Shown piece by piece: positions 305 through 63,900 of a stretch of 64,000 bases of DNA; the stretch's first letter is position 1, and each line of letters begins with the position of its first letter. The stretch is from the NCBI RefSeq assembly GCF_032854445.1, contig NC_088298.1, positions 3,902,160 through 3,966,159 on the forward strand, written 5' to 3'. Under the pieces are notes generated by a model. It searched no databases, had not been told where the DNA came from, and saw nothing but the letters and a program-made list of their open reading frames with translations. The translations under genes and the position numbers were made by a program. The DNA comes from Liolophura sinensis (lineage: Eukaryota; Mollusca; Polyplacophora; Chitonida; Chitonidae).

Positions 305-3300
305 GTGGGTTGATTTGAAATCAGATGGGAAAGTGTTGAAGTTGAAGGCCCAAAAATTGTGCCGAATTTATCTGCTGAAAAGTATCTGACTTTGAGGGGA
401 CAATTAAATATTCAGTTTTATCCTAGTGTTCCCTTCGACCATCAACTCACTCAAGTCGCCAGATGTAGAAACATAGCCAAAGACGGACTTTTTTGGATTG
501 GGTTACCTCCCCTTGTTGTCACGCTAGAGATGTACTTCAAATGTCAGACACGGCACTGTGTTGCGATTGTGCAGCTTACCATGTAACTTGAGATCCACAT
601 GGCATAGTGGGAGACTTTGCGCTGTCTCATTTGCATGTTATCTTGTAGGGCAGACAGTTTATACCAGTGATGGATTTCCCTTTATTGTTCTCCTAACCGA
701 CATTTTTCGGATCATACAGTTCCATGAGTTTTAAGTAGCAGTCCAGTGCAACTCATTTTTGTATTTAGCTGAACCAACTCAAAAATTTTGAATCTTTTTT
801 CATGAGGACACAAGGTTTTGGACAGGGTATATCTAGATTTCGGTGCTTTCACTCATTGTGGGCTGACATTAAGTGGTCAGCGGCAATCGAGATTCTGTTT
901 GCACGATCTGACGTTTCTTTGAGACATCTTCACTTTCACCAATATTGTGTCCGTATATGTACATCACGTGTGAGAAAGGTGGTCAGTAACTTGCGAATGG
1001 TCGGTGGTTTACCCCAGGCAATTTGGTTTTGTCCACCCATGAAACTGACTAGAAAATTAAATCAAATAAAGTAAAAAAAAATATATAAGTATATATATAT
1101 ATATATGAGCTGTAATTGGTAACAAGTGTTGTATGTGGTTTCAGTTACATGGAAACGGAGCAGTATGAAGAGGCCGTACGAGACTACGATAAACTGACCA
1201 AACTGGACAAGTGTCGAGGTGCGTTATGACAACTTTAATACTGCAGGGGACCAAAATGTGTATTTAAATTTGTGATGCAGTGGTTTGTGATTTGCTTCAG
1301 AAATTTGACAGTTTAAACACTTGCTGATAAAACTGTTAGATAGTTCTGTTTGTTTGTATGGGTTATTTTAAAAGAGAACCAAGTGTATCCTAAATGACGT
1401 AAAATTTTGTCCATGACTAAGTTGTTCCTTTGTCCTGATTCTGGGAGTTTTGTTGATTTTAGAAAGTTGCTTTGACAGGGGTTTGGAAGTTAGGATGATG
1501 TCCTAAGGGAAAATGTAAATTTTAGTGCCAGAAGTAATATCTCCTAACATGTATTTGTCCCCAAAACTGCTTTTTTTGTGGTTAAGTTTTAAGGTCATCT
1601 AGTGTCTTACATAAATTTTAGAAATTATAAATGTCCCTTTCTATTTTTGTGGTGTTGGGAAGTAAGCAAAATAGAACGTTTTGAGGAAATCAAGGGCGCT
1701 GCCATGTCGTCAGTTTCCTCCAAGCAGACACGAATTATTTCTATAACCGAAAACGCAGCCATTTCAGCTGATGTCATGCAAAATCTCCTTTTCCTTTTAT
1801 CTCTCTGTGCATGGGATATGAGTGACGCGACATTTTTTTTTCCGGTGTCTTTTACATGGCATCTTCCATGATCTCCAGATTAAAATTTACTTCATAGAGT
1901 CAACGAGCATGTGAGAAGAAAGTTGCAGTGGCCATTTAGGCATGGCAGGACACTATTCCAAAATATCTTTTGTTGTTTTTTTCTTACGTATCACCAGTCA
2001 AGACACCCATGCCCTTATTAGTTCGGTGGTCCAGTAACGATCAGTTTTTAATCTTTCAGAAAATAAACGGTTATTACAAGAAGCCAAACTTGCTTTGAAA
2101 CGAAGCAAACGAAAAGACTTCTACAAAATCCTGGGTGTGGCCAAAGAAGCAACGGACGACGAAATCAAAAAAGCTTACAAGAAGCGAGCATTGCTGCACC
2201 ATCCAGGTATGATTGCATGCAGAAAGATCCCCAAATGTATTTAGAAGCGAATATAATAGTTTGACATATCTGGGAGCTAAAATGAAATGGTTGCCATGAC
2301 CTTTACCGAGGGTTAGTACCACATGCTGGGTACATAAGCATGTGTGCATGGCCTTCACTGTGCCTCATTTAAGGAGGGGCCTCCGTGGCTCAGTCGGTTA
2401 GCGCGCTAGCGCAGCGTAATGACCCAGGAGCCTCTCACCAATGCGGTCGCTGTGAGTTCAAGTCCAGCTCATGCTGGCTTCCTCTCCGGCCGTAAGTGGG
2501 AAGGTGTGTCAGCAACCTGCGGATGGTCGTGGGTTTCCCCCGGGCTGTGCTCGGTTTCCACCCACCATAATGCTGGCCGCCGTCGTATAAGTGAAATATT
2601 CTTGAGTACGGCGTAAAACACCAATCAAAAAAAAAAAAAAAAAAAAAAAAATCATTTAAGGATAGGCATTGGCACCATAGATTCACCCTGCTACATGTAA
2701 AAACCCAGGGGTACATACATTTCAGACCACCCTTAATAGATGATAAATGACCTCAAATTGTGCTCCATTAGGTCCATTTTCAAATGTAAATATTAAAATG
2801 TCCTAAAATACTTTTGGTGTTGAAACTTGGATTTTTCCATTTAGTTCTGAATAAAACTCGCACAATTTGCTGGGAACATGGGTAAGTTTCAGCACCAAAA
2901 GGAATATTTTGTGACATCTATTGGCCCCCTGAAAATGTACTTTAGCTGGTAGATGGTCTAAGATGTTAACAGTTTCTTGGTTCTGAGAAAAAAACAAAGT
3001 GGGAATTAATTTTAGATTTTAAAAAAAAAAAACATTGCTTATTAACAGAATTGAATGAAGGGCAATAATGAGGCACCTCTTAAAATAATTATGCTGTCAA
3101 TATTTCTATTTAATTGAGGACCTTTATCAATACATGAGACAACTTATCTCTTATAACAACCTTAACAGAGGATTGTTAGATTAGTAAGATTAGTTGTCCC
3201 ATGTCTTGATAATGTTTGAAGTACTGTAAACCGAAATGTCAACGAAAATGGCAACATTTGAACTTCCCTCTCTCTTACTCTTGATAATGTTTGAAGTACT

Positions 3301-5267
3301 GTAAACCGAAATGTCAACGAAAATGGCAACATTTGAACTTCCCTCTCTCTTACTCTTCATAAAATTCCTCTGTTGTTCAAATGGATTTTTACAGAACTTT
3401 AACTGTGACAGTTTCTTGGGCTTTTTAGGGTATCCAGTCATATGGTTGTGCTATGTCCAAGATTCAGGGATGAGGGAAGGGGTTGGCAAGACTTGGAAAT
3501 CTTGGAGGTTTGGGGAGACTTAAGATTCATGGGAGTTGGGGAGACTTAAGATTCATGGGAGTTGGGGAGACTTAGGGATTCACTTGTTGTATAACAAACT
3601 ACAGTATCTTGTAAAATACATCTGCGTTACATAGCTTTAAAAATTCGCTATGTCAATTTTGTCATATTTTAGTTTTTCATAATCAACTGTTTCAAATGAC
3701 TGCTTTGTTTAAGAGTTAGAGAAAGGACTATCCTGTGGATTTCACTTGTAAACCAAGCGTAATGGTATTCTCTGTGATTCCTTCTGCCACGAAGGGCATC
3801 TGTTCAAGGTCAGAAAAAGTGGGTTTGATATTTCATCACGATGGGGTTGAAAGGCCTCTATATCCCGTTCATTCAGTCTTATTTGGTTTTTACCAAAATT
3901 GTCTTTTTTTTTTTTTTTGTCCAGATCGTCATTCCCATGCTGAACCAGATGTTCAAAAGGAGGAAGAGAAAAAATTTAAAGAGCTTGGAGAAGCATACTC
4001 TGTTTTATCTGATGCGAAGAAGCGTCTGCGCTATGACCAGGGGCAAGATTTAGAAGACTTGGATGGTCCAGGCTTTGGTAAGATGCGCCTTTGTGTAGGA
4101 TTTGTGTTATTCTAGGGCAAGGTCGTGCGGGCTTTCTCTCCAACTGAACGTGGGGAGGTCTTCCAGCCACCTGCGGATGGCCAGGGGTTCCCCCTCGGGG
4201 TTTGCCCGGTTTCCTCCACCATACTACTGGCTGCCGTCGTATACCTTATTTCTTCAAAAATTTGGGACACCTGGTCTGCTCATTTTAGCCAATATATATG
4301 TAATTCTAGCAGGAGTATTGAGTTTATTTTTTGCCACGTAGTTAGACCATCTAAGGAACAACATACACGCATCTTTACTTTTCCCAGAAGACTGGTAAAG
4401 AAATGTGATATTCTGCTTTCAACACCTCTAATATCTGTCCCAAATTTTGGAAGCATTAGGACAAGTGAAGTACGGTGTAAAACACCAATTAAATAAATAA
4501 ATCAGTGTTCAAACCCGGCCTTGGAGAGGGTGTTTGTAGATGCCCTCACTTTTACTGCTTGTGAGACATTGGTCACAATAAGTGCTAGACAGTGCTAATG
4601 TGACCATTTGCAGTGTCTAGTTTTTTTTGGACCAACATGGTGTTCATATCTGTATAATGTATGTCACATGGGGAAGTTCATCAGTATCTCGCCAAAGGTT
4701 AGTGGTTTACTCCCAGGCACTTTGGTTTCCTCCATCCATAAAATCAGCTGCCGTCTTGTGGGTGAAATACTTTTCAGTAAGGCAATAAACAGCAATTAAA
4801 TGAAAGTTAGAACAAGATTTAGGGGATTGTTATAGATGGTCGTTAGCCAGCAATTACTTTTGTTGAAGACCACTTGCCTTCTGTCAAATCTGAATGTCTT
4901 TAAACAGAAAGTTCGTCAGTAATTTACTGAATGTCAGTGGCTTACACTGGGTTCTCTCATATCCTCCTTCCATGATAATGTGCAAGCAGCTCTTGATATA
5001 GGGGAAAATAATAATGAAATAAATACACAAACCAAATAATTGTACAGCTTTTTTCTGTGATCTGTACCAGCAGATGCATAAAATAATATTTTTCTCATTT
5101 CTTCCTTTCTTTCAGATCACATTGATCCAAACCAAATATTCCAGGCTTTCTTCGGAGGTAACCAAGGCTTCTCCTTTGGGGGTGGCAACTTTGGCGGCAT
5201 GGGGGGCAGTAGTTTCCACTCCCACTCGAGTCAATTCCCCGGAGAATTCACCTTCCAGTTTGGATGA
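213..5267 (+). CDS. DNAJC7: DnaJ homolog subfamily C member 7 (TPR2), 3' part, five coding exons
   Basis: Cytosolic co-chaperone that binds HSP70 and HSP90 through TPR repeats and stimulates HSP70 through a J domain (family knowledge). Exons seen: 213-304, 1145-1218, 2060-2206, 3925-4077 and 5116-5267; all have AG/GT borders and the phases (2,1,1,1) join without a break. They encode the last 205 residues: the final TPR repeats ([13 protein letters not shown], then [17 protein letters not shown]), a basic linker [15 protein letters not shown], the J domain with HPD split by an intron (HHP then DRH), the conserved [20 protein letters not shown] helix, and a Gly/Phe tail ending FTFQFG. Human DNAJC7 has 494 residues and ends similarly (FFFQFG), so the N-terminal TPR clusters lie left of the window. 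Identification is by recalled similarity and is strong. Confidence 0.95.
1145..1218 (+). CDS. DNAJC7: DNAJC7 exon: last TPR helix pair
   Basis: Short 74-nt exon between gtttcag and a GTGCGT donor. It encodes [20 protein letters not shown], nearly the same as the human [16 protein letters not shown] segment, so the splice borders are well supported. Confidence 0.93.
2060..2206 (+). CDS. DNAJC7: DNAJC7 exon: linker and J-domain helices I-II
   Basis: Encodes [19 protein letters not shown], then [20 protein letters not shown] and [10 protein letters not shown]. Helix II and the start of the HPD loop are here; the Asp of HPD is split by the intron (G before the donor, AT after the acceptor). Confidence 0.95.
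2376..2651 (+). mobile_element. full-length tRNA-derived SINE with clear target-site duplication
   Basis: Head has a Pol III A box (tggctcagtcgg) and B box (gagttcaagtcc), then the shared 3' part (cgtcgtataagtgaaatatt, gtacggcgtaaaacacc) and an A tail. An 11-bp duplication tcatttaagga flanks it (2365-2375 and 2652-2662). Best reference copy in the window. In DNAJC7 intron. Confidence 0.93.
3205..3354. repeat. 75-bp direct duplication, DNAJC7 intron
   Basis: Two almost identical 75-bp copies starting cttgataatgtttgaagtac at 3205 and 3280. A 26-bp threefold repeat (gggagttggggagacttaag) follows at about 3500-3575. Confidence 0.88.
3925..4077 (+). CDS. DNAJC7: DNAJC7 exon: J-domain helices III-IV
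   Basis: Begins after a long T run and ccag. It completes HPD (DRH), then gives [40 protein letters not shown]. The phase-1 end joins the last exon. Confidence 0.95.
4118..4500 (+). mobile_element. SINE interrupted by an inverted-repeat element
   Basis: SINE middle (ccacctgcggatggccaggg) to ccgtcgtata at 4243, then a foreign 217-bp element, then the SINE end (caagtgaagtacggtgtaaa) with an AAATAAATA tail. About 10 bp of SINE are lost at the join. The SINE was there first. Confidence 0.85.
4243..4460. mobile_element. family A inverted-repeat element (MITE-like)
   Basis: Ends ttcttcaaaaatttgggaca and tgtcccaaattttggaagca are inverted repeats of about 25 bp. About 217 bp, no coding. Sits inside a SINE. 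Other copies: 16306-16366 (end fragment), 31757-31945, 48650-48889. Confidence 0.82.
4668..5036 (+). mobile_element. two degraded second-subfamily SINE fragments, DNAJC7 intron
   Basis: 4668-4800 (gggaagttcatcagtatctc, ggtttactcccaggcacttt) and 4902-5036 (gaaagttcgtcagtaattta) with short A-rich tails. Similar weak copies are at 975-1085, 24358-24490, 31130-31235, 43058-43205 and, reversed, at 50905-50965 and 51180-51260. Confidence 0.7.
5116..5267 (+). CDS. DNAJC7: DNAJC7 last coding exon, Gly/Phe-rich tail
   Basis: Follows tttctttcag. Reads [20 protein letters not shown], then a Gly-rich run and a His/Ser patch, and ends EFTFQFG before TGA. The DPN-IF-AFFGG block and the aromatic-Gly end are family marks. 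The tail is somewhat longer in Gly/Ser/His than I recall for human. Confidence 0.94.
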
Positions 5268-22630: not shown

Positions 22631-22820
22631 ACAGTATGTACATGTACATGTCTAAAATGCACGTTTAAGGGAAATTTTAGGCCATTTAATATTTAATTTT
22701 CAGATTTTCTTTAGAACTTTCAGACTTTTAAATGCTACTGAAGTAAGGGTTTTAATTCGTTTTTCTTTGTGTTGTAGGTAACAAGACACAGGCTTTGGGT
22801 GATGTTATGATTTTATTGGC

Positions 22821-22967
22821 GAACTGACAGCTGAAGTTGGACGTCTGCGGCAGAGCTGCGAACTGACAGCTGAAGTTGGACGTCTGTGGCAGAGCTGCAA
22901 ACTGACAGTTCAAGTGGGACGTCTGTGGCAGAGCTGTGAACTGACAGTTCAAGTAGGACGTCTGCAG
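22821..22967 (+). repeat. 39-bp repeat, four copies, just upstream of the DNAJC10 start
   Basis: Unit gaactgacagctgaagttgg plus acgtctgcggcagagctgc, copies at 22821, 22860, 22899 and 22938. The block ends about 50 bp before the ATG, so it is probably in the 5' UTR or core promoter. 39 bp is a multiple of three, which leaves long shadow frames on both strands, but none joins the signal peptide. Confidence 0.85.
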
Positions 22968-23019: not shown

Positions 23020-23630
23020 ATGAACGTTGTTGGTGTTGTTGTGATTGCAGTTCTTTTGTCGTTACTGGGCGCTTTGGCGTCACAGGACTTTTATGTACTC
23101 CTTGGGGTGTCACGATCGGCCAGCACAAAAGAGATTCGAAAAGCTTTTAAGAAATTGGCCCTTATAAAACATCCAGATAAGAATAAGGTAAGATATTTTA
23201 ATTCCAATTTTGGTATTTTTACCAAATTTAAATTCCAGTGAAAATTTTGTACAAAAATCTGGAAGTTGGTAAAAAGTGTATTTTGAAAGAATTTGCTGTA
23301 TTTGCTGACTTATTTATTTAATTGTCCGACATCTATGTTTACAAATATCAAGAATAACATGCTTTAAGCAAAGGCAGGTTTAGAGTAGGAAAAAAAAGAT
23401 TTAAATATTTACAAAACAAATCAGAAGTTGGTTGATTTACCTCCCTTGTTCCACTCTTTCAGGACAACCCTGTTGCCCATGAAGAGTTCCTAAAAATAAA
23501 TCGTGCTTATGAAATCCTGAAAGACGATGACTTGCGAAAAAAGTATGACACATATGGTGAAGAAGCCTGAAGGATGACTTCCATGGAGGACGACAGTATG
23601 AAAGCTGGAAATTCTACCAAGAAGAATTCG
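23020..23630 (+). CDS. DNAJC10: DNAJC10 exons 1-2: signal peptide and J domain
   Basis: Exon 1 (23020-23187) starts at the only ATG giving a signal peptide: [20 protein letters not shown], with cleavage likely just before QDFY. The J domain follows: [34 protein letters not shown] with HPD at about residues 51-53. Exon 2 (23463-23630) gives [20 protein letters not shown] and KYDTYGEE. Read as given, the frame then hits TGA at about 23568. One extra G near 23562-23567 would restore [20 protein letters not shown], which matches the human GGQYESWNYYRYDFG region and leaves the correct phase for exon 3. This is therefore an assembly or read error, or a true frameshift allele. Confidence 0.92.
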
Positions 23631-26600
23631 GTAAATCTTGCAACACTACTGTTAATATTAAAAATGGTGGTAATAACTATATTTTTTGGTTTCTTATTTT
23701 GTCAGTCTCATTGGTCTATTCGTCTAATGTTTAGGACAGATATAAGAAGTGCTGAAAACAAAGAATTACATTTCTCTCTCAGTTTTTTTTGGAAAAGTTA
23801 TAATACGAATGTGTTATTCATTAGATGAACTAACCATGTAAAAAAAAAAAAAAAAAAGAAAGTAACTAAATATTACTACGACAATCACATGTATGTTGGC
23901 TAAGAAGAGCAGCTCATGTTTCCCAAAAATGAGAAGAATTAGGTCGGCAGCTGAAGTACGGTAAATGACCTAAAGTTTCGCCCATGACCAAGGAACACAT
24001 TATGGCAGATTCTTAGAATTCTGATGATCTTAAAAAGGCGTTTTGAGGTTTGTTTGGAAGGTAGGATAACACCATATTGGGAAAATGTAAACTTAAACAC
24101 CAGAAGTAATATTTTAGGTCATTTATTTGCAGGCATAATTTTAGGCCATTTTCCCTATATTACAATAAGGCATATGCATGGAATCTGAGAGAGCTAGGCT
24201 ATACCAGAGATTTTTGGCTGAAAATCAGTCAGTGCAAATCCAAGTGGTTTCTCACGGACTCTCTTTGCTTTCACTGCTCATGGGACCTTGGTGAAAAAAA
24301 AACAGTCATCTAGTGTTCACTGAAGACCAGGTGTCTTCCACCAATAAGATCAACTGGGGAAGTTCGTCAGTAACTTGGCAAAGGCTGGTGGTTTACTCCC
24401 GGCTCTGTGATTTCTTCCGCCCCTGAAACTGACCACTTTCATATAAGCGAAAATAATTGAGTATGGCATTAAACATGAATCAAATAAAACAAGACATTGA
24501 TATAACACGAGCAGGCTTTGTAAGCTAACGTCGTCGTTGCTGTTTTCATTCTGACAGGTCTCTATGACGACGACCCTGAGATTATCACATTGAGTCGTGT
24601 GGATTTTGGTGAGTTAGTCCTACATGAATTTTAGTTGTTCAGGGTGTATTGTACATTTTAAAAGGTCACAACTTCCCCTCACCCACCACCCCCACCCCCC
24701 AAAAATGGCAAATTCCTTGAACATAGGACTTCACAGACTCCTGGATTGCACTGGTACCTTTTGTTCCCTCCTGTAGATATTTAATCTGACCATTTTCAAG
24801 ATGACACCTTAATAATTTTCATGCATGGACAGATAGAAAGGAGGAAAATATATATATGTATTTTGTTTATGGATATTACTTGTATATCACTTCTGTGTTA
24901 AATAAAGTTTCTTTCTTGTCTGTTCAGATGTTCCTTTGGAATGATGTACAGTTTATCAACTTCAACTGTGTTTGTTTATTTACATGTTTCCGTGAAAGGT
25001 TCTGATGATTTCTGGTTTATCAAGTGTTACTTTATTTATTTAGATGTTTCTGTGGAAGGTTCTGATGATATCTGGTTTATCAACTGTTACTTTGTTTATT
25101 TAGATGTTTCTGAGGAAGGTTCTGATGATATCTGGTTTATCAACTGTTACTTTATTTATTTAGATGTTTCCATGGAAGGTTCTGATGATATCTGGTTTAT
25201 CAACTGTTACTTTGTTTATTTAGATGTTTCCATGGAAGGTTCTGATGATATCTGGTTTATCAACTGTTACTTTGTTTATTTAGATGTGTCTATGGAAGGT
25301 TCTGATGATATCTAGTTTATCAACTGTTACTTTGTTTATTTAGATGTTTCCATGGAAGGTTCTGATGATATCTGGTTTATCAACTGTTACTTTGTTTATT
25401 TAGATGTTTCCATGGATGTTCTGATGATATCTGGTTTATCAACTGTTCACTTTGTTTATTTAGATGTTTCCATGGAAGGTTCTGATGATATCTGGTTTAT
25501 CAACTGTTGATTTATTTATTTATTTAGATGTTTCCATGGAAGGTACTGATGATATCTGGTTTATCAACTGTTGCTTTATTTATTTAGATGTTTCCATGGA
25601 AGGTACTGATGATATCTGGTTTATCAAGTGTTACTTTGTTTATTTAGATGTTTCCATGGAAGGTTCTGATGATATCTGGTTTATCAACTGTTACTTTGTT
25701 TATTTAGATGTGTCCATGGAAGGTTCTGATGATATCTGGTTTATCAAGTGTTACTTTGTTTATTTAGAGGTTTCTGAGGAAGGTTCTGATGATATCTGGT
25801 TTATCAAGTGTTACTTTGTTTATTTAGATGTTTCCATGGAAGGTTCTGATGATATCTGGTTTATCAACTGTTACTTTGTTTATTTAGATGTTCTGTGGAA
25901 GGTTCTGATGATATCTGGTTTATCAACTGTTACTATATTTATTTAGATGTTTCCATGGAAGGTTCTGATGATATCTAGTTTATCAAGTGTTACTTTGTTT
26001 ATTTAGATGTTTCCATGGAAGGTTCTGATGATATCTGGTTTATCAACTGTTACTTTGTTTATTTAGATGTTTCCATGGAAGGTTCTGATGATGTCTGGTT
26101 TATCAAGTGTTACTTTGTTTATTTAGATGTTTCCATGGAAGGTTCTGATGATATCTGGTTTATCAACTGTTACTTCGTTTATTTAGATGTTTCCATGGAA
26201 GGTTCTGATGATATCTGGTTTATCAACTGTTACTTCGTTTATTTAGATGTTTCCGTGGAAGGTTCTGATGATATCTGGTTTATCAACTTTTACTCTCCGC
26301 ATTGCTCCCACTGCCACCAACTTGCACCGGCTGTAAGTAAAAGTTTGGACATTGTTACAAAATGATTACTCCTTCATTTGGCCCACTAGAGACAACATAA
26401 GACAGTTACGCCAAAAGAAATAAATCGTTTTGGATAAATTAATTTTTTTTTATCATCACTGCTTGTTTGTACAACCAAACTAGGGGTGCCTAAATCTTTC
26501 ATGTTTGTATTTTGTTCAGAATTGGCCTAGATCAGGAATTTACCCTAAATGACCATGACTAACTAACTTTCCTGATTTTGAAAGTACCATTGATTTTAGA

Positions 26601-29600: not shown

Positions 29601-32600
29601 AAAAGCGTGTAGATCCAGTGAGAATTCTTGAGTATACCTTTAAAGATTACTCAAATAAATAAATAAATAAACAAATTTATTCAAGATCAGTTCATAACTC
29701 TGCTTGAATATGCTTTCCTCTTCTCTTTTTCAGATTGCTTATCAGAAATGTCTGCTTTGAAATTGGCCGTCATGCTGGTGAGTTTAAAAAGTGATGTAAA
29801 ACTTTTGTTTTGTTATATCAGGATATTTTTCAGGTACCTGACAATTAAAGGGCAGTGGTTTCCTCGGGTCTGTGTCTTACACTGGTTGTCTTACGGCTCT
29901 TTCTGGTTTCCTCAGGACTATCTCTGGCCTCTGGTCTCTCTCTAGTGTCCTGTGGGCTTTACTGGTTGCCTTTTCTATGGGTTCTCACTGGGCTTCTGCT
30001 GGTTTCATCTGGTTTTGACATGGCTCACTCCGACCCCCCCCCCCCCCCCCACATCCTTAACCGCCCGAAATCTCTATCTGCTTTCCTCAGTCTTAATCTT
30101 GTTTTGCCAGTTTCTGTCATTAAGCTCTATATATCTGGTGTCCACTGGGCTCTCATCTGGTGTCCATTTGGCTCTCATCTGGGTGTCCACAGTGCTCTCC
30201 CCTGTTTAGGATGGAGAATCAATTTTAGAATCCATTAGTCCAGTGAATAACCACGCATGTTTTGTGTTCTCCATTACAAGACTGATTCATACGGATGTAG
30301 GCACAATCAAAGGAAAAATTAATGTAGATAAATTTAATTTGTTTTAATTGTGCTTTTCTGCCTTACAGGACAGATTAGTTGATGAGGACTCGATCAAAAA
30401 ATAACACTGTACATAAATTTCATTTTGTGTTGTGTTTTTTCCCTCTGTAGCACAAACTGGTGGATTTGAACTCAATCAAATAGTAGATAAGTTTCATTTG
30501 TCTCGTTTTTCTTCCTTTCAGGACAGATTGGTTTGGGTATGGGCTCAGTCCATGGAATAATTACTGTAGATAAGTTTCATTTGTCTTTTTTTCTCCCTTG
30601 TAGGACGGTTTGGTGCACGTTGGCTCTGTAGACTGTCACTCTGATGAGAAAATCTGTGAGAAGCTGGATGTTGAGTACGGCACCATTTACTTTCCCCAGG
30701 CCAGGGTTGTCAAAGGTGTCGGCTTGGTGAGTGCACCTGTGGACAGGCCTCTTCATGAAGTAAGAGGTGGCCTAGATGACAATCAGCATATGACAGTGAG
30801 GCTCGTGTGACCATGCTGCCTAATGTTGGTTGAACACTGCTTGTTCTCCACCAGTATGGTGTGCGTGTCTGTGTGTGCTCCATCAATATGGTGTACGTGT
30901 CTGTGTGTGCTCCACCAATATGGTGTGTGTGTGTGTGTATGCGCTCCACCAATGTGGTGTGCATGTCTGTATGTGCTCCACCATTATGGTGTGTGTGTGT
31001 GTGTATGCGCTCCACCAATATGGTGTGAATGTTTGTACGTGCTCCACCAACATGGTGTGCGTGTCTCCACCACTATAATGTGCTTGCTGTATGTGCTCCA
31101 ACAATATGGTGTTCATGTCTGTATGTCATGTGGGAAAGTGTGTTAGTAATTTGCTAAAGGTTGGTGCTTTACACCAGGCAATGTAGTTTCCTTTACCCTT
31201 ATAATTGACAGACATCGTATGATATATATGTCAAAAAGCGATCCGCACTGTTTTTAAGACGACGGTATCATATTAAATACATGTGTGCTGGAGTAAATTA
31301 GTGAATGTTACTCAAATCTCATTTTGTTGCAGCTGATTTTAAAATGTTTTTAAAAAATGATTTTAAAATTTTGATATGTGATATTCATTTCCTTTACTGT
31401 TTTACAATGATATAAATAAAATTTAATACATTTCAAACGTTTAAACCATATTGGAGGTCAAAATATCAAACATTTTGACCCCAGGATTTCCATTTTATTC
31501 ACACTTAATGACGTGACAAATTTTATGTACACAAGTTGGTAACTTTGAAAAGATCAGGTGTAACATTAAATCATTTTATTAACGTGATTAAGTCTTATTA
31601 AATCAATCTACAGACCATGATTTTTTTTTTCTGCCCCTCCTTTTCAGAAAATAACAAGTTTGTACCCCAAAGACGTGGTAAGAACGGTATTTGAGCAGTT
31701 GCCTGATGTCACAGAGCTTGACAGCGTGACTTTTGATGTAAGCTACAACCTGAATCACTCTAATTCGTCTAATTTTTTTCTAAACTGGTCTGCTCGTTTT
31801 AACCAATATACACATAATTGCAGCAAGAATATTTAGTTTCTTTTTCTTCACATTGCTGATACATCTTATGAACAACATATTGGTGTCTGTACTTTCCCAA
31901 ACAGCTGAGAGAGAGATGTAATTCTTTCAGCACTATTTATACAGAGGAAATAGGGTGTTTTGGTTATTTAATTGTAGTTTGGAAACTTTGCCCGGACTGC
32001 CAGAAATGACCAGAAATTTTGTCTCTGTCTTGCCCTTTATTCCTGATTCTGAATGTTCTATTAAATTTAGAATTTCCTCCATAACTTGCCCTTTATTCCT
32101 GATTCTGAATGTTCTATTAAATTTAGAATTTCCTCCATAACTTGCACATTATTCCTGAGTCTGAATGTTCTATTAAATTTAGAATTTCCTCCATAACTTG
32201 CCCTTTATTCCTGATTCTGAATGCTCTATTAAATTTAGAATTTCCTCCATAACTTGTCCATTATTGCTGATTCTGAATGTTCTATTAAATAATTTCGTCC
32301 ATAACTTGTCCATTATTCCTGATTCTGAATGTTCTATTAAATTTAGAATTTCCTCCATAACTTGCCCTTTATTCCTGATTCTGAATGTTCTATTAAATTT
32401 AGAATTTCGTCCATAACTTGCCCTTTATTCCTGATTCTGAATGTTCTATTAAATTTAGAATTTCCTCCATAACTTGCCCTTTATTCCTGATTCTGAATGT
32501 TCTATTAAATTTAGAATTTCGTCCATAACTTGCCCTTTATTCCTGATTCTGAATGTTCTATTAAATTTAGAATTTCGTCCATAACTTGCCCTTTATTCCT

Positions 32601-35600: not shown

Positions 35601-38600
35601 AAATGTGTTTCATGTGCCTGGTTCAAAGTAGGCTGCTTGTACTCCATGAAAGCTACAAATTGTATGATATAGTATTTTAATTTGACGAGTAGATATACCA
35701 ACTTGCACTTTACATTGCGGATTTACATTGTGAGCAGCTGGTAAATGCCTGTTGTTTTTTTAGCAGGATTATGGACTTTTTTCCCCTTTCTTTTTTACCT
35801 GATCTAATATGAGAACATTGTTGAGTTCTTTAATTTAAACATCGGATAGAATGACACTGCATGTTTTTGTCCGTTTTTCAGATTGGTCGAGTTGACTGCA
35901 GCCGAATGAGAACATTGTGCAATAAGCAACACATCCTAAAATTCCCAACATTCATCATTTATAAACCTGGAGGAAGCCATGAGGTCTATTATGGTGAGTT
36001 ATTTCCCTTAGTGGAAACTCTTCCGAGATCCTGGTACAAATGACAGTTGTTTTAAATTTTAAAAACTGTGAGGTCTTGTTTTTGACCATTTGGATGTCTT
36101 CAGTGCCAAAGAAATATGTGAACAAAGGATAAAAAGATTTATAATTTCTTTTCACTTTTGAAGTCATTAAAAAACACAAATCTGGTCTTCTTAGCAACAT
36201 TTTGTGTTGCATTACTCTTTGTTGCACATAAGATAACATGGCCATAACTACTTGAGTCACTCATTCATTCAATCAGCCAATCAGTCAATATCATTTTACT
36301 CCACAGGTCGCTTAACTGCCCACGATATTGCAGCTTTTGCGAAGGACAGTGTTGTCACTCCGATAGAAGCACTTGGGCCTCGTGACTTCCCGGACAGAGT
36401 AGTCACTAGTGATGAACATTGGTTTGTCGACTTCTTTGCACCAGTAGGTTTTTCTTTTTGTCAAATTTGTCTTTCTTTCCAAATGAAATCCAGCCTGTAT
36501 GAATTTTTTGTTTTCACTTTGTCAGCATGATGGAAAGATAGTCCATGACTCCGACATGGTTTCCTTTAAATAGAAACTTGACTGCTGTCGTATTTATGTA
36601 GTGAAGTACTGAATTGCCGTGACCTTCTACAAATCCGTCTATGAATCATTTGTTAAGAAGCTTGGTGGCTCCTGTGACCCAGATTGTTAGCATGCCAGTG
36701 CTGCACTGTAACTCTGAAGCCTTTCATCAGTGCAGTTGCTGTGGGTACAAGTCCAGCTCAGGCGCACGAGAAGGTCTGCCAGCAATTTGGTGAAGGCCGT
36801 TTCCTCCCACTGTAATGCTGGCAGCCATTGTATAAGTGAAATATTCTTGATTGGGACGTAAGACACGAATCAAATAAATAAATAAATTGTCTGCGGTCCT
36901 GTCATTGTTTCAGTGGTGTCCGCCATGTATGCGTCTCCTCCCTGAATTTAGGAAAACGGCCAAGGATATGGGCTACACAGTGAACTTTGGGACAGTGGAC
37001 TGTACCGTACACAGTCATCTTTGTAGACAGGTATTGTAAGAAAACCTTCCTGTAAATTGTATTGTAATTTATTGCAATTCAGACAATATTATTTCTTCGG
37101 ATTGGATGAAACGCGTAAAAAGTGCAGCAAAAAGTGTACACATCATGGCGATAAATTGTGGAACCATTTCAAACTTCATGTGGCACAGTATTAACATGTT
37201 TTCATAATGCTCGGAAATCTTAACACAGTCTTGTGAGGCTAAGGCAACTTTCAGTTTTTGTTATGATCCGCAATTCAAGCTCTCGCCCCAACAAAGTGGG
37301 CAAACTGAAGTAATAGGGGAGCACTCTTGAGTTGTAAGACATAAATTCAACTTGGACCAGAGTCACCATTAATTTGAAATTAAAAGGTACAGTATAGGCA
37401 ATGTGTGTCAAAACTGATAAGTTTGGTTTCTGTTTTTTCATGACAGTACAACATCCACTCCTATCCGACGACGATATTTTACAACAACACTCAGCCTCAC
37501 CAATACCACGGCCACCACGATGCCTTCAGCATGGCTGAGTTTCTTCAGGTTTGTACTCACATCATTGTTCATTTCTGATCATTTATTTTACCACAGCACT
37601 GTTTAACGAAGCAAAATGATTAAGGTATTCATGGATGAAACTCAAATTCAGTTATCTCCAGATCAAAGCAAAAATATAATCCGGTATGTAGATTAAAAAG
37701 AATATATTTTATGGTCAGTACGAACTCATGATAAAAGCAATTAAGCAAATTTAAGATCTTTGGGGTCTCGCTCACTGAGATTGTTAAACGGCTGGGCCCA
37801 GTTTTACGATGCACTCTTAACGATAGGTTCACTTGACTTCCACGGCAACCAGTACTGCCGGCATTACGTTGTCATTGCAGCTGTGAGGTTGTCACATTAA
37901 GAGTGCTTCGTGCAACTTGGCCCAGGTTCTCAGCAACTTGGTGTATCAGGCCCTTGACAAATGAGGCCACATGCTCGAATCCAGCACTTGCTGCTTTGCC
38001 TGTTGCTTAAAGTCAGGAGATTTACGAGGAACCTAGCCAAGATCGGTGGTTTACTCTGAGCACTCCGGTCTGTTTCACCGAGTAACCTAGCGAAGATCAG
38101 TGGTTTACTCTCGAGCACTCTGGTCTATTTCACTGAGGAACCTAGCGAAGATCAGTGGTTTACTGTGAGCTTTGGTCTATTTCACCGAGGAACCTAGCAA
38201 AGATCAGTGGTTTACTTTGAGCGCTCTGGTATATTTCACTGAGGAACCTAGCGAAGAAGATCAGTGGTTTACTCTCGAGCACTCTGGTCTATTTCACCGA
38301 GGAACCTAGTAAAGATCAGTGGTTTACTGTGAGCTCTGGTCTATTTCACCGAGGAACCTAGCAAAGATCAGTGGTTTACTTTGAGCGCTCTGGTATATTT
38401 CACTGAGGAACCTAGCGAAGAAGATCAGTGGTTTACTCTCGAGCACTCTGGTCTATTTCACCGAGGAACCTAGCAAAGATCAGTGGTTTACTCTGAGCTC
38501 TGGTCTATTTCACCGAGGAACCTAGTGAAGATCAGTGGTTTACTCTCGAACACTCTGGTCTATTTCACCGAGGAACCTAGTGAAGATCAGTGGTACTCCG

Positions 38601-54970: not shown

Positions 54971-57900
54971 CTGCAAATGAGAAAATATGAACTGTTAATT
55001 TTCAACAATTTGATGGATTGTAGAAAAAAAAAATCTCCAAACTTCCTTACACAGTCTTGCCTAACATCATCACATTCTATTTCGGTCTTTATTTTTAATC
55101 TGATATCGCTTAAGCTCAGGACAAAATTATGTGTGGGTTGGGGGGTGGAATTTAGCACCAAGATAAACCACCAAGCTAACAAGATCCTACAGGTATAAAC
55201 ATTAATCTGTCTCTAAAAAAGCATTTTTTATTTCACAAAATTTTAGGTCATTCACCTGACTGAAAACTCATTTATCTTCAGAATTCACCCTTACCTTCTG
55301 AGCCGCTAAGAAGAGTCTATGGACAAGAGTTCCTGCGGGGCCTTGGGGTCCACCTCTCACGATCACCTCTGGCTGGGAGAGGAGACAGGACACAAAATGT
55401 TGAATCTCCGCCTCTTCTTCACCACTGTGCTCCATCAGCTCCATAAAGAACTTCGATTTCAGTGATTTTGCCCTTGCTATCACAGTCTCCGCTAGTCTGA
55501 TGGCCTTCAGTAAGTCCTGAAAGTTGTGAACAAAAAACGATATTGAAAGGCAAATGACGTTGAAGACCAAATGACATTTGAAGGCTCTGTCTGGATTTTC
55601 TCCCACCATAATACTGGCTGTTGTTGCATATGTGAAATATTCTTCAGTACAAAATAAATAAAAATCAAATAAATAAATATCTGGTACTGGCAACCCTTAT
55701 CTGAGATATGACGCCATACCATCCTATCTGGCATCTGACTTCATATCATCCTGTCGGTTATCTGACCTCACATTCTATCTTATCTTATATCTGACCTCAT
55801 ATCACATCTTATCTGGTATTTGACCTCAAATCCTATCTTATCTGGTATCTGACCACATATCATCCTATCTTCCCTGGTATCTGACCTCCTATCATCCTAT
55901 CTTCACTGGTATTTGACCTCATATCATCCTATCTTTTCTGGTATCTGACCTTCACTGGTATTTGACCTCATATCATCCTATCTTCTCTGGTATCTGACCT
56001 CATATCATTCTGACCTCATATCATCCTATCTTATCTGTTACCTGACCTCATATCATCCTACCTTATCTGTTACCTGACCTCTTATCATCCTATCCTGACT
56101 CTTTACCTAACTACCTATCATCCTATCTTATCTGTTACCTAACTACCTATCATCCTATCTTATCTGTTACCTAACTACCTATCATCTTATCTTATCTGTT
56201 ACCTGACCTTATATCATCCTATCTTATCTGTTACCTGACCTCATATCATCCTATCTTATCTGTTACCTGACCTCTTATCATCCTATCTTATCTGTTACCT
56301 GACCTCATATCATCCTACCTTATATGTTACCTGACCTCTTATCATCCTATCTTATATGTTACCTGACCTCATATCATCCTATCTTATCTGTTACCTGACC
56401 TCTTATCATCCTACCTTATCTGTTACCTGACCTCTTATCATCCTATCTTATATGTTACCTGACCCCCTATCATCCTATCTTATCTGTTACCTGACCTCAT
56501 ATCATCCTACCTTATCCGTTACCTGACCTCTTATCATCCTATCTTATCTGTTACCTGACCTCTTATCATCCTATCTTATATGTTACCTGACCTCATATCA
56601 TCCTACCTTATCTGTTACCTGACCTCATATCATCCTATCTTATCTGTTACCTGACCTCTTATCATCCTCTCTTATCTGTTACCTGACCTCATATCATCCT
56701 ATCTTATCTGTTACCTGACCTCATATCATCCTATCTTATGTTACCTGACCTCATATCATCCTATCTTATCTGTTACCTGACCTCATATCATCCTATCTTA
56801 TCTGTTACCTGATCTCATATCATCCTACCTTATCTGTTACCTGACCTCATATCATCCTATCTTATCTGTTACCTGACCTCATATCATCCTATCTTATCTG
56901 TTACCTGACCTCATATCATCCTACCTTATGTTACCTGACCTCATATCATCCTATCTTATCTGTTACCTGACCTCATATCATCCTATCTTATATGTTACCT
57001 GACCTCATATCATCCTATCTTATCTGTTACCTGACCTCATATCATCCTATCTTATCTGTTACCTGACCTCATATCATCCTATCTTATCTGTTACCTGACC
57101 TCATATCATCCTATCTTATGTTACCTGACCTCTTATCATCCTACCTTATCTGTTACCTGACCTCTTATCATCCTATCTTATCTGTTACCTGACCTCATAT
57201 CATCCTACCTTATCTGTTACCTGACCTCTTATCATCCTATCTTATCTGTTACCTGACCTCATATCATCCTACCTTATCTGTTACCTGACCTCTTATCATC
57301 CTCTCTTATCTGTTACCTGACCTCATATCATCCTATCTTATCTGTTACCTGACCTCATATCATCCTATCTTATCTGTTACCTGACCTCATACCATCCTAT
57401 CTTATCTGTTACCTGACCTCATATCATCCAACCTTATCTGTTACCTGACCTCATATCACCCTATCCTAACTCTTTACCTAAGTACCTATTATCCTCTCTT
57501 ACCTCGTAACGGCGTATCTCGGGCAAGGGGGACCTCGTCGCTTTGGCCGCCTTTGACGTAATTTGCTCAATCAACAGTTTCAGCTTAGGCACATGTGGAT
57601 CTTCTGTATCAAGAAAATGAGGCAGTGGATGATTGAATGAGCAAATGAATTAACCTTGGCTTGATCTGCCGGTGTGACAGACACATTCCATAGTCTAGAC
57701 CACTTTAAAGGTGAAGAACACATAAAATTTACATTAAGTTCAGATGAAAGAATGTGAAAACTTTTTTTTTTTGAGAGAGAGAAAAAGCTTTGAATGACAA
57801 AGATATTTGAAAATGTTTTTGGTATGGTGGGTATTTGTGACCAATTCCCTTTGTGCAATAATGTTATAAATGAGGATGTAACAGATGCTTAATAAATATA

Positions 57901-60900: not shown

Positions 60901-63900
60901 CATTCTCCACATCCGCCTCCACATAATCGCGCGGGGAATACCAGCGGACAAAATCCTCCAGGACACACCCAGGATTGGCCGCCTACAGAGACATGGCACA
61001 CAATCTCAGCATTTACATTTGAATAAAACATACGAAATTATAAAACACAAGAAGTTTATTCCATTTAAAATGAAGTATTTTAAAGTTAACACCATTTACA
61101 TGTAACTGTAACAAACTTTACAGACATTTTGTGTATTTCAACTATAAAGTGGTATGTAAAATGCACTTAGAATACTTATTATGCCAAGCTCAAGTTTTTC
61201 TGCCTGTGAGAAATTTAACACAGCTTGTGACAAATCTAACACAGCTTATGACAAATCTAACAGAGCTTGTGATAAATCTGACACAGCTTGTGACAAATCT
61301 ACCACAGCCCATGACAAATCTAACAGAGCTTGTGATAAATCTGACACAGCTTTTGTCACATCTAACACAACCTTTGCCACATCTAAGACAGCCCATGAAA
61401 AATCTAACACAGCTTACAACAAATCTAACACAGCCCATAACAAATTTAACATAGCCAATGACAAATCTAACGCAGCCGGTAACAAAATGAACGCACCTTG
61501 AAGGACTCCATATCAGAGAGTAGGCATGCACTCTGCATTCGCGCTCTAAGCTGAGCACCTTCTGAGGACGTTCCTAACCTGCAATCAGAGTGGCAGTCCT
61601 TTGATTTCAGTGGTGTTTATTTCTCCAACCTTTTTCTTTTCACATGTTCAACAGACCTGGTGTTGTTTTAGGCAACATTTAATCATATCTCAGCTTTAAT
61701 TAACACTTTGCAAGGCCCTGATGTTGGCAAAACCACCCAAATTATTTGTGCCAAATATTTTTTGCTCCTCACGCATACCTCTGCAACTTGTACCTGTTAC
61801 AGTTATGACTATTAGTGAGTTTGTTAGTTGCAAATTAGTCAGAGTTAAGCTATGTGAAAACAAGTGTCTTAAATCATATATACTGTAAACCTTCAATCTT
61901 TTCAACCACTAAAGCGCTTTTTTCCGTGGAATTTATGCATCCAACTATTACGAAAATGATGCTAAAATGATGTAATTGTGTCATGAAAGATGCAATTTTC
62001 AAAAAAACTATTCAAATAATTTCTCTACACTGAATAGTTTTCTCAGAATATTCCAAAATATTGGTTTGCCAATGTTTATTTATTTATTTATTTGATTGGT
62101 GTTTTACACCGTACTCAAGAATATTTCACTTATGCAACGGCGGCCAGCATTATGGTGGGAGGAAACCGGGCAGAGCCCAGTGGAAACCCACGACCATCCG
62201 CAGATTACTGGCCAACCTTCCCACGTACGACCGGAGAGGAAGCCTGCATGAGCTGTACTTGAACTCACAGCCACCACATTGCTGAGAGACTCATGGGTCA
62301 TTACACTGGGCTTGCTGGCTTGCCGATGTGGTTAAAAAGGTTGAAGAATAAGGGTAACTCTGAGGAACAAATATATTAAGCCATGTGATCATAAAAGTAT
62401 CTATCATAATAGTGGGACTTGTGACTCAGTTTCTCATTTTCCGAACTTACTTGGCCAATGCTTCAGCATGTTCATCAAGCATGTCTTCCGTCATTGGGGC
62501 TGGTTCCTGGGTGATCGGTATGTACAACGTCTCCCCAGAATCAAGCAATTTTAAGTCTCCGTATGGTCGCAGTCGGCCATCAGGTCTGTATGAGATAGAG
62601 TCTTTAAAAAATGTGGCGTCATTAGAATCACAACTTTCCCCTAAATTTGACGCCTTTTTTTCAACTTCTTTTTCTTCCTCAGTTGCCCCTTCAGTCGCGG
62701 ATTCATTTTGCTTTTCAGTCACAGATTCATCACACTCAAAAAATTCCATTTCCTCTTCACTAGAGCTTTCTTGTCCAACAGCGCCCTCTAAATTGTCTTT
62801 CCCTGTTTCGGTCCCCCCTGCATCGCCAGGGTCAGCCCCTGAGAATTTAGCCTGCTGTTCTTCTCGCCTTATTTTCCTCTCTATACAACAGTTCAACATC
62901 TGTAACCATGACAACAGAAATATTAAAACGAACCTATATTGAAAAAGTAATGAATATCTTAAATTATTAATTTTACAGTGAAGTAATTAGAATTACACAA
63001 AAAAAAGATTGAACAAGCCCCAAGATTATTTTAACCAAATCTTGCAGTTTGAAAAATTAGAGTTACTGCAAGGCATGACAAAAACAAATAAAAAGAAAAA
63101 AAAAAAACTTTTCGAACAAAAGACAAATCCCCTTATTTGCTTCATTTCAATCTCAATACTCTGACTTGTTTTTCGTGCTCAATTGTGAACATATATAATG
63201 AGAGATGTTAAGACAAACCTGTGACAATTTCAACTTCCACGATCAAACAGTAAACTTTGACCATCTTTTGAAATGACCCTGTGGAAAGCACTCAGTTCAT
63301 GTCTTTTTTTGTTTTTTTTTTTAACAATTTGGGATGTCCATGTCAACACTATGAGCTTTATACGTAATGGGAAACCCTTAACATTTCAAGGTAAAGTTAA
63401 CATCTTACCTGTAATTTCTGATGAAGGATACAAGAGCCCATGTTTGGTGCTGACCTTTCCAAACTGCAACAACAACAACATCCTTATTATAAACACATTT
63501 TACTATATTCTGTGGTCTATGTACTGGATTTCATACATTTTAAAAACAAAATCTGAATATCTTGATCCTTATCATTTAACCCTGCTTCTGAGATACAAGG
63601 GTTTCGAATTTTCAAGTCTGAGGTTAGCGAAAAGCTGTAGTCCTTTTCTTTATATTCTTCAACAATGTGCACACAATGAAAGACAAATTCCAGTTAAATT
63701 TGATTACTGTTGCATTTCCTATCACCTAATTCCATTGTACAAGATAATTTCAAAGATTTGTCTAATCTTTAGTGGCAAATTTATACTACTGAATATACTA
63801 GCCCATTGTAAAACTTTCAAAATTACACGTTGGTAAAATCTGCGACTTAGTAATGGGTGAAATTTTGGGTTATTTTTGCCTCCAACTCACTTTGGTATCA

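Follow-up and report, generated by a model that had tools for sequence, protein, structure and literature searches.

The window, which is the whole stretch of 64,000 nucleotides analyzed here, carries the DNAJC10 (ERdj5) gene on its plus strand. Eighteen exons of this gene were placed between positions 23020 and 42897 by tblastn with a human ERdj5 probe, combined with GT-AG borders; the placed exons stop short of the 3' end of DNAJC10. The segment around the repeat array described below matches solved DNAJC10 structures (E 1.6e-18), and residues 1-254 of the model contain the Pfam domains DnaJ and Thioredoxin. The sequence-only reading of this DNA had assigned the array to exon 4 of DNAJC10 and to its reading frame, and the structure matches, the tblastn results and the reading frames support this assignment. 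Exon 2 (23463-23630) shows a one-base frameshift at about 23566, between GEE and GL, when compared with relatives; this is possibly a sequencing error or the mark of a defective gene copy. A 39-bp repeat with 3.8 copies (22819-22965) lies immediately upstream of the DNAJC10 start codon. Two further genes were noted in the window: another DnaJ-domain gene on the plus strand at 2113-4067 (PF00226; two exon pieces joined together give E 3.6e-24), and pieces of a gene for the catalytic subunit of the Rab3 GTPase-activating protein on the minus strand at 55271-55696 and 62450-62986 (PF19533, PF13890).

The six named proteins among the first 12 matches of the homologue search are from molluscs and show 61-63% identity, compared with 52% for Branchiostoma belcheri. 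In a quick tree of 56 rows, the window falls inside a set of 35 rows that contains all mollusc rows (SH-aLRT 99), with Branchiostoma elsewhere. Within this set its neighbour is a single sequence (85), and it does not fall among the gastropods, bivalves or cephalopods that were sampled (90). The host may be an aculiferan, for example a chiton. The mollusc identities, together with the tree, rule out an amphioxus as the host of the array. Among the 120 listed homologues (best identity 63%), no same-species or close annotated protein was found that would reveal the splicing of this gene. The features on which the following analysis is built are given here, all on the plus strand.

24558..24608, plus strand: DNAJC10 exon 3, ending in phase 1 (after G), placed by ERdj5-probe tblastn with canonical splice sites
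24908..24927, plus strand: front 3' splice site (TTTCTTTCTTGTCTGTTCAG), the best-scoring acceptor of the ladder (PWM 8.6, 14/16 pyrimidines); its exon copy is frameshifted, with a stop at 24942
24928..24983, plus strand: degenerate front unit of 56 nt with AC in place of AG at its end (24983), 44/64 identity to the consensus
24971..26294, plus strand: 60-bp minisatellite of 22 copies, in each of which an acceptor is followed by about 47 nt from the head of exon 4 (TRF, unit splitting)
26007..26246, plus strand: last four array units, the sole array units with acceptors open into exon 4 (reading frame)
26247..26332, plus strand: exon 4 of DNAJC10 itself (86 nt) with the active site CSHC, the donor GCT/gtaagt and, at its start, the putative main acceptor (reading frame, homologues)
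30235..30603, plus strand: decayed 3'-junction array that precedes exon 8, with four diverged copies at spacings of about 71-90 bp (junction comparison)
30604..30726, plus strand: DNAJC10 exon 8 (ERdj5-probe tblastn)

TRF describes the exon-4 array as a repeat with period 60, 22.0 copies and 94% matches. Its unit consists of the end of intron 3 and about 47 nt of exon 4, that is, of the intron 3/exon 4 junction, which bears out the earlier description of a minisatellite built from a splice junction. Split at its acceptors, the array resolves into the degenerate front copy, 21 further units and the coding exon head. The further units are close to the consensus: 19 agree at 55/60 to 60/60 positions, and two are gapped (58/61 and 58/64). 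The coding exon-4 head is identical to the array consensus at 45 of 47 nt. Indels are present in units 25404, 25464 (+4) and 25888 (-1). The front copy agrees with the consensus at 44/64 positions; the next unit, with 55/60, lies within the interior range, and the units at the 3' edge are undiverged (59/60). At this gene-proximal edge the authentic boundary is intact, since 26247-26332 yields the conserved segment and a GT donor. Compared with its own intron, the exon-4 junction scores 61; none of 100 dinucleotide shuffles scored above 18, and none of 60 further 1-kb tiles of the window above 15. The junction array is real and not a product of chance.

The ladder had been read as about 22 near-identical 3' splice sites in frame. 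The number holds: one acceptor is a CAG (exon start 24928), and the other 21, with exon starts from 25044 to 26247, are TAG. The frame does not hold, as three units contain indels and 17 of the 22 acceptors meet a stop. Near-identity also fails at the front, where acceptor 24928 has a CAG, a better tract and a frameshifted exon copy and where the junction at 24983 reads AC. Only five starts, 26007, 26067, 26127, 26187 and 26247, allow an open frame into exon 4; they are exactly the five acceptors named before, and the stops expected near 25314 and 25977 are present at 25313-25315 and 25976-25978.

The window is rich in minisatellites: 34 merged TRF regions cover 15,740 of its 64,000 bases (24.6%; one 25-base A run was left out), and 11 of them, the exon-4 array and ten others, are at least 250 bp long. 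Random placement was carried out with five in-gene arrays (two short ones of the seven TRF regions in the gene were left out) and put a mean of 3.5 of the five on an exon boundary. Thus, a single array on a boundary is unremarkable, and this position was ruled out as a surprise in itself. The arrays of the window appear to be mostly kept out of exons. A dispersed repeat, at most about 74 bp long and with tails of the AAAT type, was observed at 36814-36887 and at 13 other places; we take its tails to resemble those of mollusc SINEs.

An array over-expanded in the assembly, or a decaying allele or pseudogene, would be another explanation, and both the one-base frameshift in exon 2 and the indels in three units speak for it. 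That frameshift leaves room for errors of the assembly at base level or for a defective copy of the gene, which counts against the reading of the array as a passenger of a working gene. However, the units bear scattered private and shared variants and are not all exact repeats, the ten other arrays of at least 250 bp lie in the same window, and the 17 other placed exons are open with GT-AG borders. We therefore regard an artefact or a defective copy as very unlikely.

It had been proposed that the array could make protein-length variants or tune DNAJC10 output by its copy number. As a device for length variants, use of the last five acceptors would insert a 20-residue unit between zero and four times ahead of the first thioredoxin active site, and the number of isoforms would follow the copy number. 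The five open acceptors, a unit length that is a multiple of three and a pyrimidine content within the authentic range all agree with this proposal. Constraint was counted in the 18 clean 60-nt units, leaving out the three indel units, the front copy and exon 4. These units contain 14 distinct single-base changes, of which 3 are synonymous, 10 non-synonymous and 1 a stop, compared with 31, 139 and 10 possible changes of these classes; such proportions fit drift. Where the exon-adjacent unit (exon 4) has Val, 14 of the 18 units encode Met (the remaining ones Val in 2 and Glu in 2), and the homologues have Val in 118/120 and Ile in 2/120. Likewise, 6 of the 18 units have Lys at a position where 119/120 homologues have Asn. 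Because these residues conflict with near-invariant positions and the changes occur in drift proportions, constraint seems to act on the exon-adjacent unit and not on the array. Conservation of the acceptor AG in all 18 units gives no information on selection, since 47 of the 60 unit positions do not vary either.

Homologous proteins point in the same direction. Of 874 matches, 120 homologues were inspected; their segment between exon 3 and the active site is 30-44 residues long, and that of the window has 41. None of these 120 exceeds the window by more than 3 residues there, although they are mostly predicted proteins, which may omit rare or odd isoforms. Neither coding constraint nor cross-species conservation of an alternative segment was thus seen, as the array changes look neutral and 0/120 inspected homologues are longer there by more than 3 residues. 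Indels and stops inside the array also speak against length variants, and an added unit would presumably repeat a helix and a strand of the thioredoxin fold. An isoform-generating function is therefore not supported, and we consider the length-variant proposal to be highly improbable; an effect on DNAJC10 output through nonsense junctions would be possible.

Splice signals were scored with a small acceptor matrix (PWM) built from the 16 other acceptors of the gene, with authentic sites scored leave-one-out. Acceptor 26247 scores -4.5, which is below all 16 other authentic acceptors (-1.3 to 15.6). Among the 21 TAG sites, 19 score -6.4 to -1.4, and only 25528 and 25588 reach 1.2 and 3.3; the front CAG at 24928 scores 8.6. 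Of 768 other AGs between exons, 193 score at least as high as 26247 and 11 at least as high as the front site. The array acceptors nevertheless look usable, because their pyrimidine counts (11-12/16, with 14/16 at the front site) fall inside the authentic range of 10-16. Judged by these signals, they would be usable but mediocre sites, and the best-scoring one would yield nonsense. TATCAAC had been suggested as the branch point; it is replaced by the candidates that fit yUnAy, which are, in the consensus, CTGAT (with its A 38 nt before each acceptor) and TTTAT (24 nt). At seven of the 21 TAG acceptors, a further AG lies downstream of the CTGAT position and upstream of the acceptor itself.

The donor of exon 4 scores 3.7, among the four lowest of the 17 authentic donors (leave-one-out, 13 at 4.6 or above and four at 3.3-3.7; the matrix includes one exon-9 site taken with a wrong exon end, and the exon-9 score itself was disregarded). 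This weak donor weakens the argument from exon definition. Inside the array the recurrent GT scores 2.8 and the single best donor 3.9, and repeated mini-exons made with donors within the array are unlikely. A scanning spliceosome could prefer the front site at 24928, which would make nonsense RNA.

According to a further explanation, the front CAG and the 16 upstream stop-leading TAG acceptors would divert part of the pre-mRNA to decay, so that array length or front-site strength lowers DNAJC10 output with no new protein. The front acceptor is indeed the best-scoring one in the ladder, and 17 of the 22 acceptors lead to stops. A precedent for a length effect is the 25-bp intronic VNTR of human ABCA7, where longer arrays go with lower expression and more exon skipping and one VNTR unit is retained in about 2% of transcripts (PMC5954066). 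On the other hand, the amphioxus arrays discussed below are said not to make aberrant mRNA (PMC3087553, PMC3902484), and a second array within DNAJC10 implies tolerance of upstream acceptors.

This second array became apparent when copies of exon junctions were searched at 17 acceptors and 17 donors of the gene, where only the acceptors of exon 4 and exon 8 stand out. The exon 16 acceptor gave p 0.01 with a match that does not span the boundary and is equalled by 4/60 tiles of the window. The exon-11 junction has a weak match at 35763-35821 in intron 10, which spans the boundary and includes 13 identical exon-11 bases (p about 0.05 in shuffles, with 1/60 window tiles as good). The exon-8 junction scores 21.5 against its own intron, with at most 15.5 in 100 shuffles and at most 13.5 in 61 other window tiles. 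Its copies in intron 7 have their boundaries at about 30279 (weak), 30369, 30451 and 30522, before the real acceptor at 30604. Their identities to the exon-8 junction are 46% for the weak first copy and 61%, 61% and 66% for the others, over 75-86 aligned columns.

Three of the exon-8 copies carry good acceptors, with PWM scores of 16.9, 10.4 and 17.8, which are somewhat inflated because exon 8's own site sits in the matrix (its leave-one-out score is 13.0). Each of the three runs into a stop, with 30369 and 30522 out of frame as well; the full frame is reached only from the exon's own acceptor. The exon-8 array is older and decayed, and of the same type as the young exon-4 array. As its copies kept good acceptors while diverging by a third or more, such upstream copies seem to be tolerated in DNAJC10, and, with exon 8 itself intact, the gene appears to have lived with them for long. 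The exon-8 array is the best internal argument for our inference that an exon-proximal choice can win. Diversion of pre-mRNA to decay is, on balance, unlikely.

We conclude that the exon-4 array is probably a "mirage", that is, a minisatellite across an exon-intron boundary, which would be an unconstrained passenger with splicing mainly to 26247. Its defining feature, a tandem minisatellite-like repeat that spans the boundary, is present here, with 22 copies. By chance, the founding unit would have included the 3' splice junction of intron 3; each expansion would then have copied the acceptor, the exon head and possibly the branch point, and unequal exchange or replication slippage would be the turnover that spreads variants among the units. 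The spliceosome would mainly join 24608 to 26247, the acceptor adjoining the exon's own donor, giving the 86-nt exon, and with this main junction the array would behave as intron. Minority transcripts may use 26187, 26127 and so on, each adding 20 residues, or upstream acceptors that give nonsense RNA, which is presumably degraded.

A bolder version would make the array a splice rheostat in which 22 competing acceptors set the shares of normal DNAJC10, of isoforms with 20 additional residues and of nonsense RNA. Through changes in array length, this setting would differ between individuals or somatic cells; differences in array length between somatic cells have reportedly been seen for amphioxus Adh3. 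We rate such a rheostat as quite unlikely.

Several acceptors for one exon are familiar from NAGNAG and other close tandem acceptors. The array shares several AGs per exon with these and differs from them in its 60-bp spacing and its minisatellite origin. Its closest counterparts are the mirages published for amphioxus Adh3, globin (BflGb6, BflGb9), TnC and PGBD5 genes, which likewise consist of minisatellite-like tandem copies across an exon-intron boundary, 3' ends included (PMC3087553, PMC3902484). In BflGb6 the repeat covers an intron's 3' end together with the beginning of exon 2, comparable to the acceptor and exon-4 head here (PMC3087553). Many amphioxus copies keep their AG/GT signals, and, as reported for BflGb6, an edge copy escapes homogenisation. 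Adh3 data and RT-PCR suggest that regular splicing is undisturbed by the copies, and the globin repeats could nevertheless act as cryptic sites (PMC3087553). For PGBD5, with imperfect repeats of 60 bp (2 or 7 copies) and 108 bp (3 or 6 copies), both counts depending on the assembly, non-interference with splicing is a suggestion and not a demonstration (PMC3902484).

The differences lie in the host and in the scale. The amphioxus examples are from cephalochordates, which is not part of the definition, whereas the host here is a mollusc, and the 22 copies compare with 6 and 3 in BflGb6 and with 2 or 7 of the 60-bp repeat in PGBD5. Unlike these mirages, the DNAJC10 array has a unit length divisible by three and an open frame from each of its last five acceptors, and two arrays that differ in age share one gene. 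In human segmental duplications, the internal tandem repeats located at exon-intron boundaries are also minisatellite units that can alter splicing; with a mean of 4 units of 30 bp, they are found in recent paralogues, and nearly all are supported by RNA (PMC2812944), whereas DNAJC10 is a conserved gene, known here from sequence alone. The ABCA7 repeat is alike in that a splice signal sits in each 25-bp unit and repeat length is associated with splicing and expression, and unlike in that its unit starts with a donor within an intron, whereas the DNAJC10 unit is an acceptor with an exon head (PMC5954066).

The sequence-only reading knew of no described case with so many tandem acceptors in a conserved ER chaperone. 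Boundary-spanning minisatellites have been published for amphioxus and human, so that this statement stands only for the number: no case with as many as 22 acceptors occurs in the parts of PMC3087553, PMC3902484 and PMC2812944 that were compared, a comparison that covers the copy numbers of BflGb6 and PGBD5 and the mean of the human repeats. A literature search of titles and abstract openings found no boundary-spanning minisatellite in a mollusc. The kind of array is thus already known; the mollusc host, the copy number and the presence of two arrays in one gene appear to be new.

If the mirage reading is true, boundary-capturing minisatellites are not specific to amphioxus and reach 22 copies in a conserved chaperone gene of a mollusc. 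They would have arisen twice in DNAJC10, at exon 4 (young) and at exon 8 (decayed), and would provide snapshots at two ages for the proposal that such repeats are seeds of new introns (PMC3087553). As the copies before exon 8 suggest, good acceptors upstream can be passed over for long evolutionary periods, and the exon-4 array would be a natural test of how the spliceosome chooses one 3' site among many near-identical ones.
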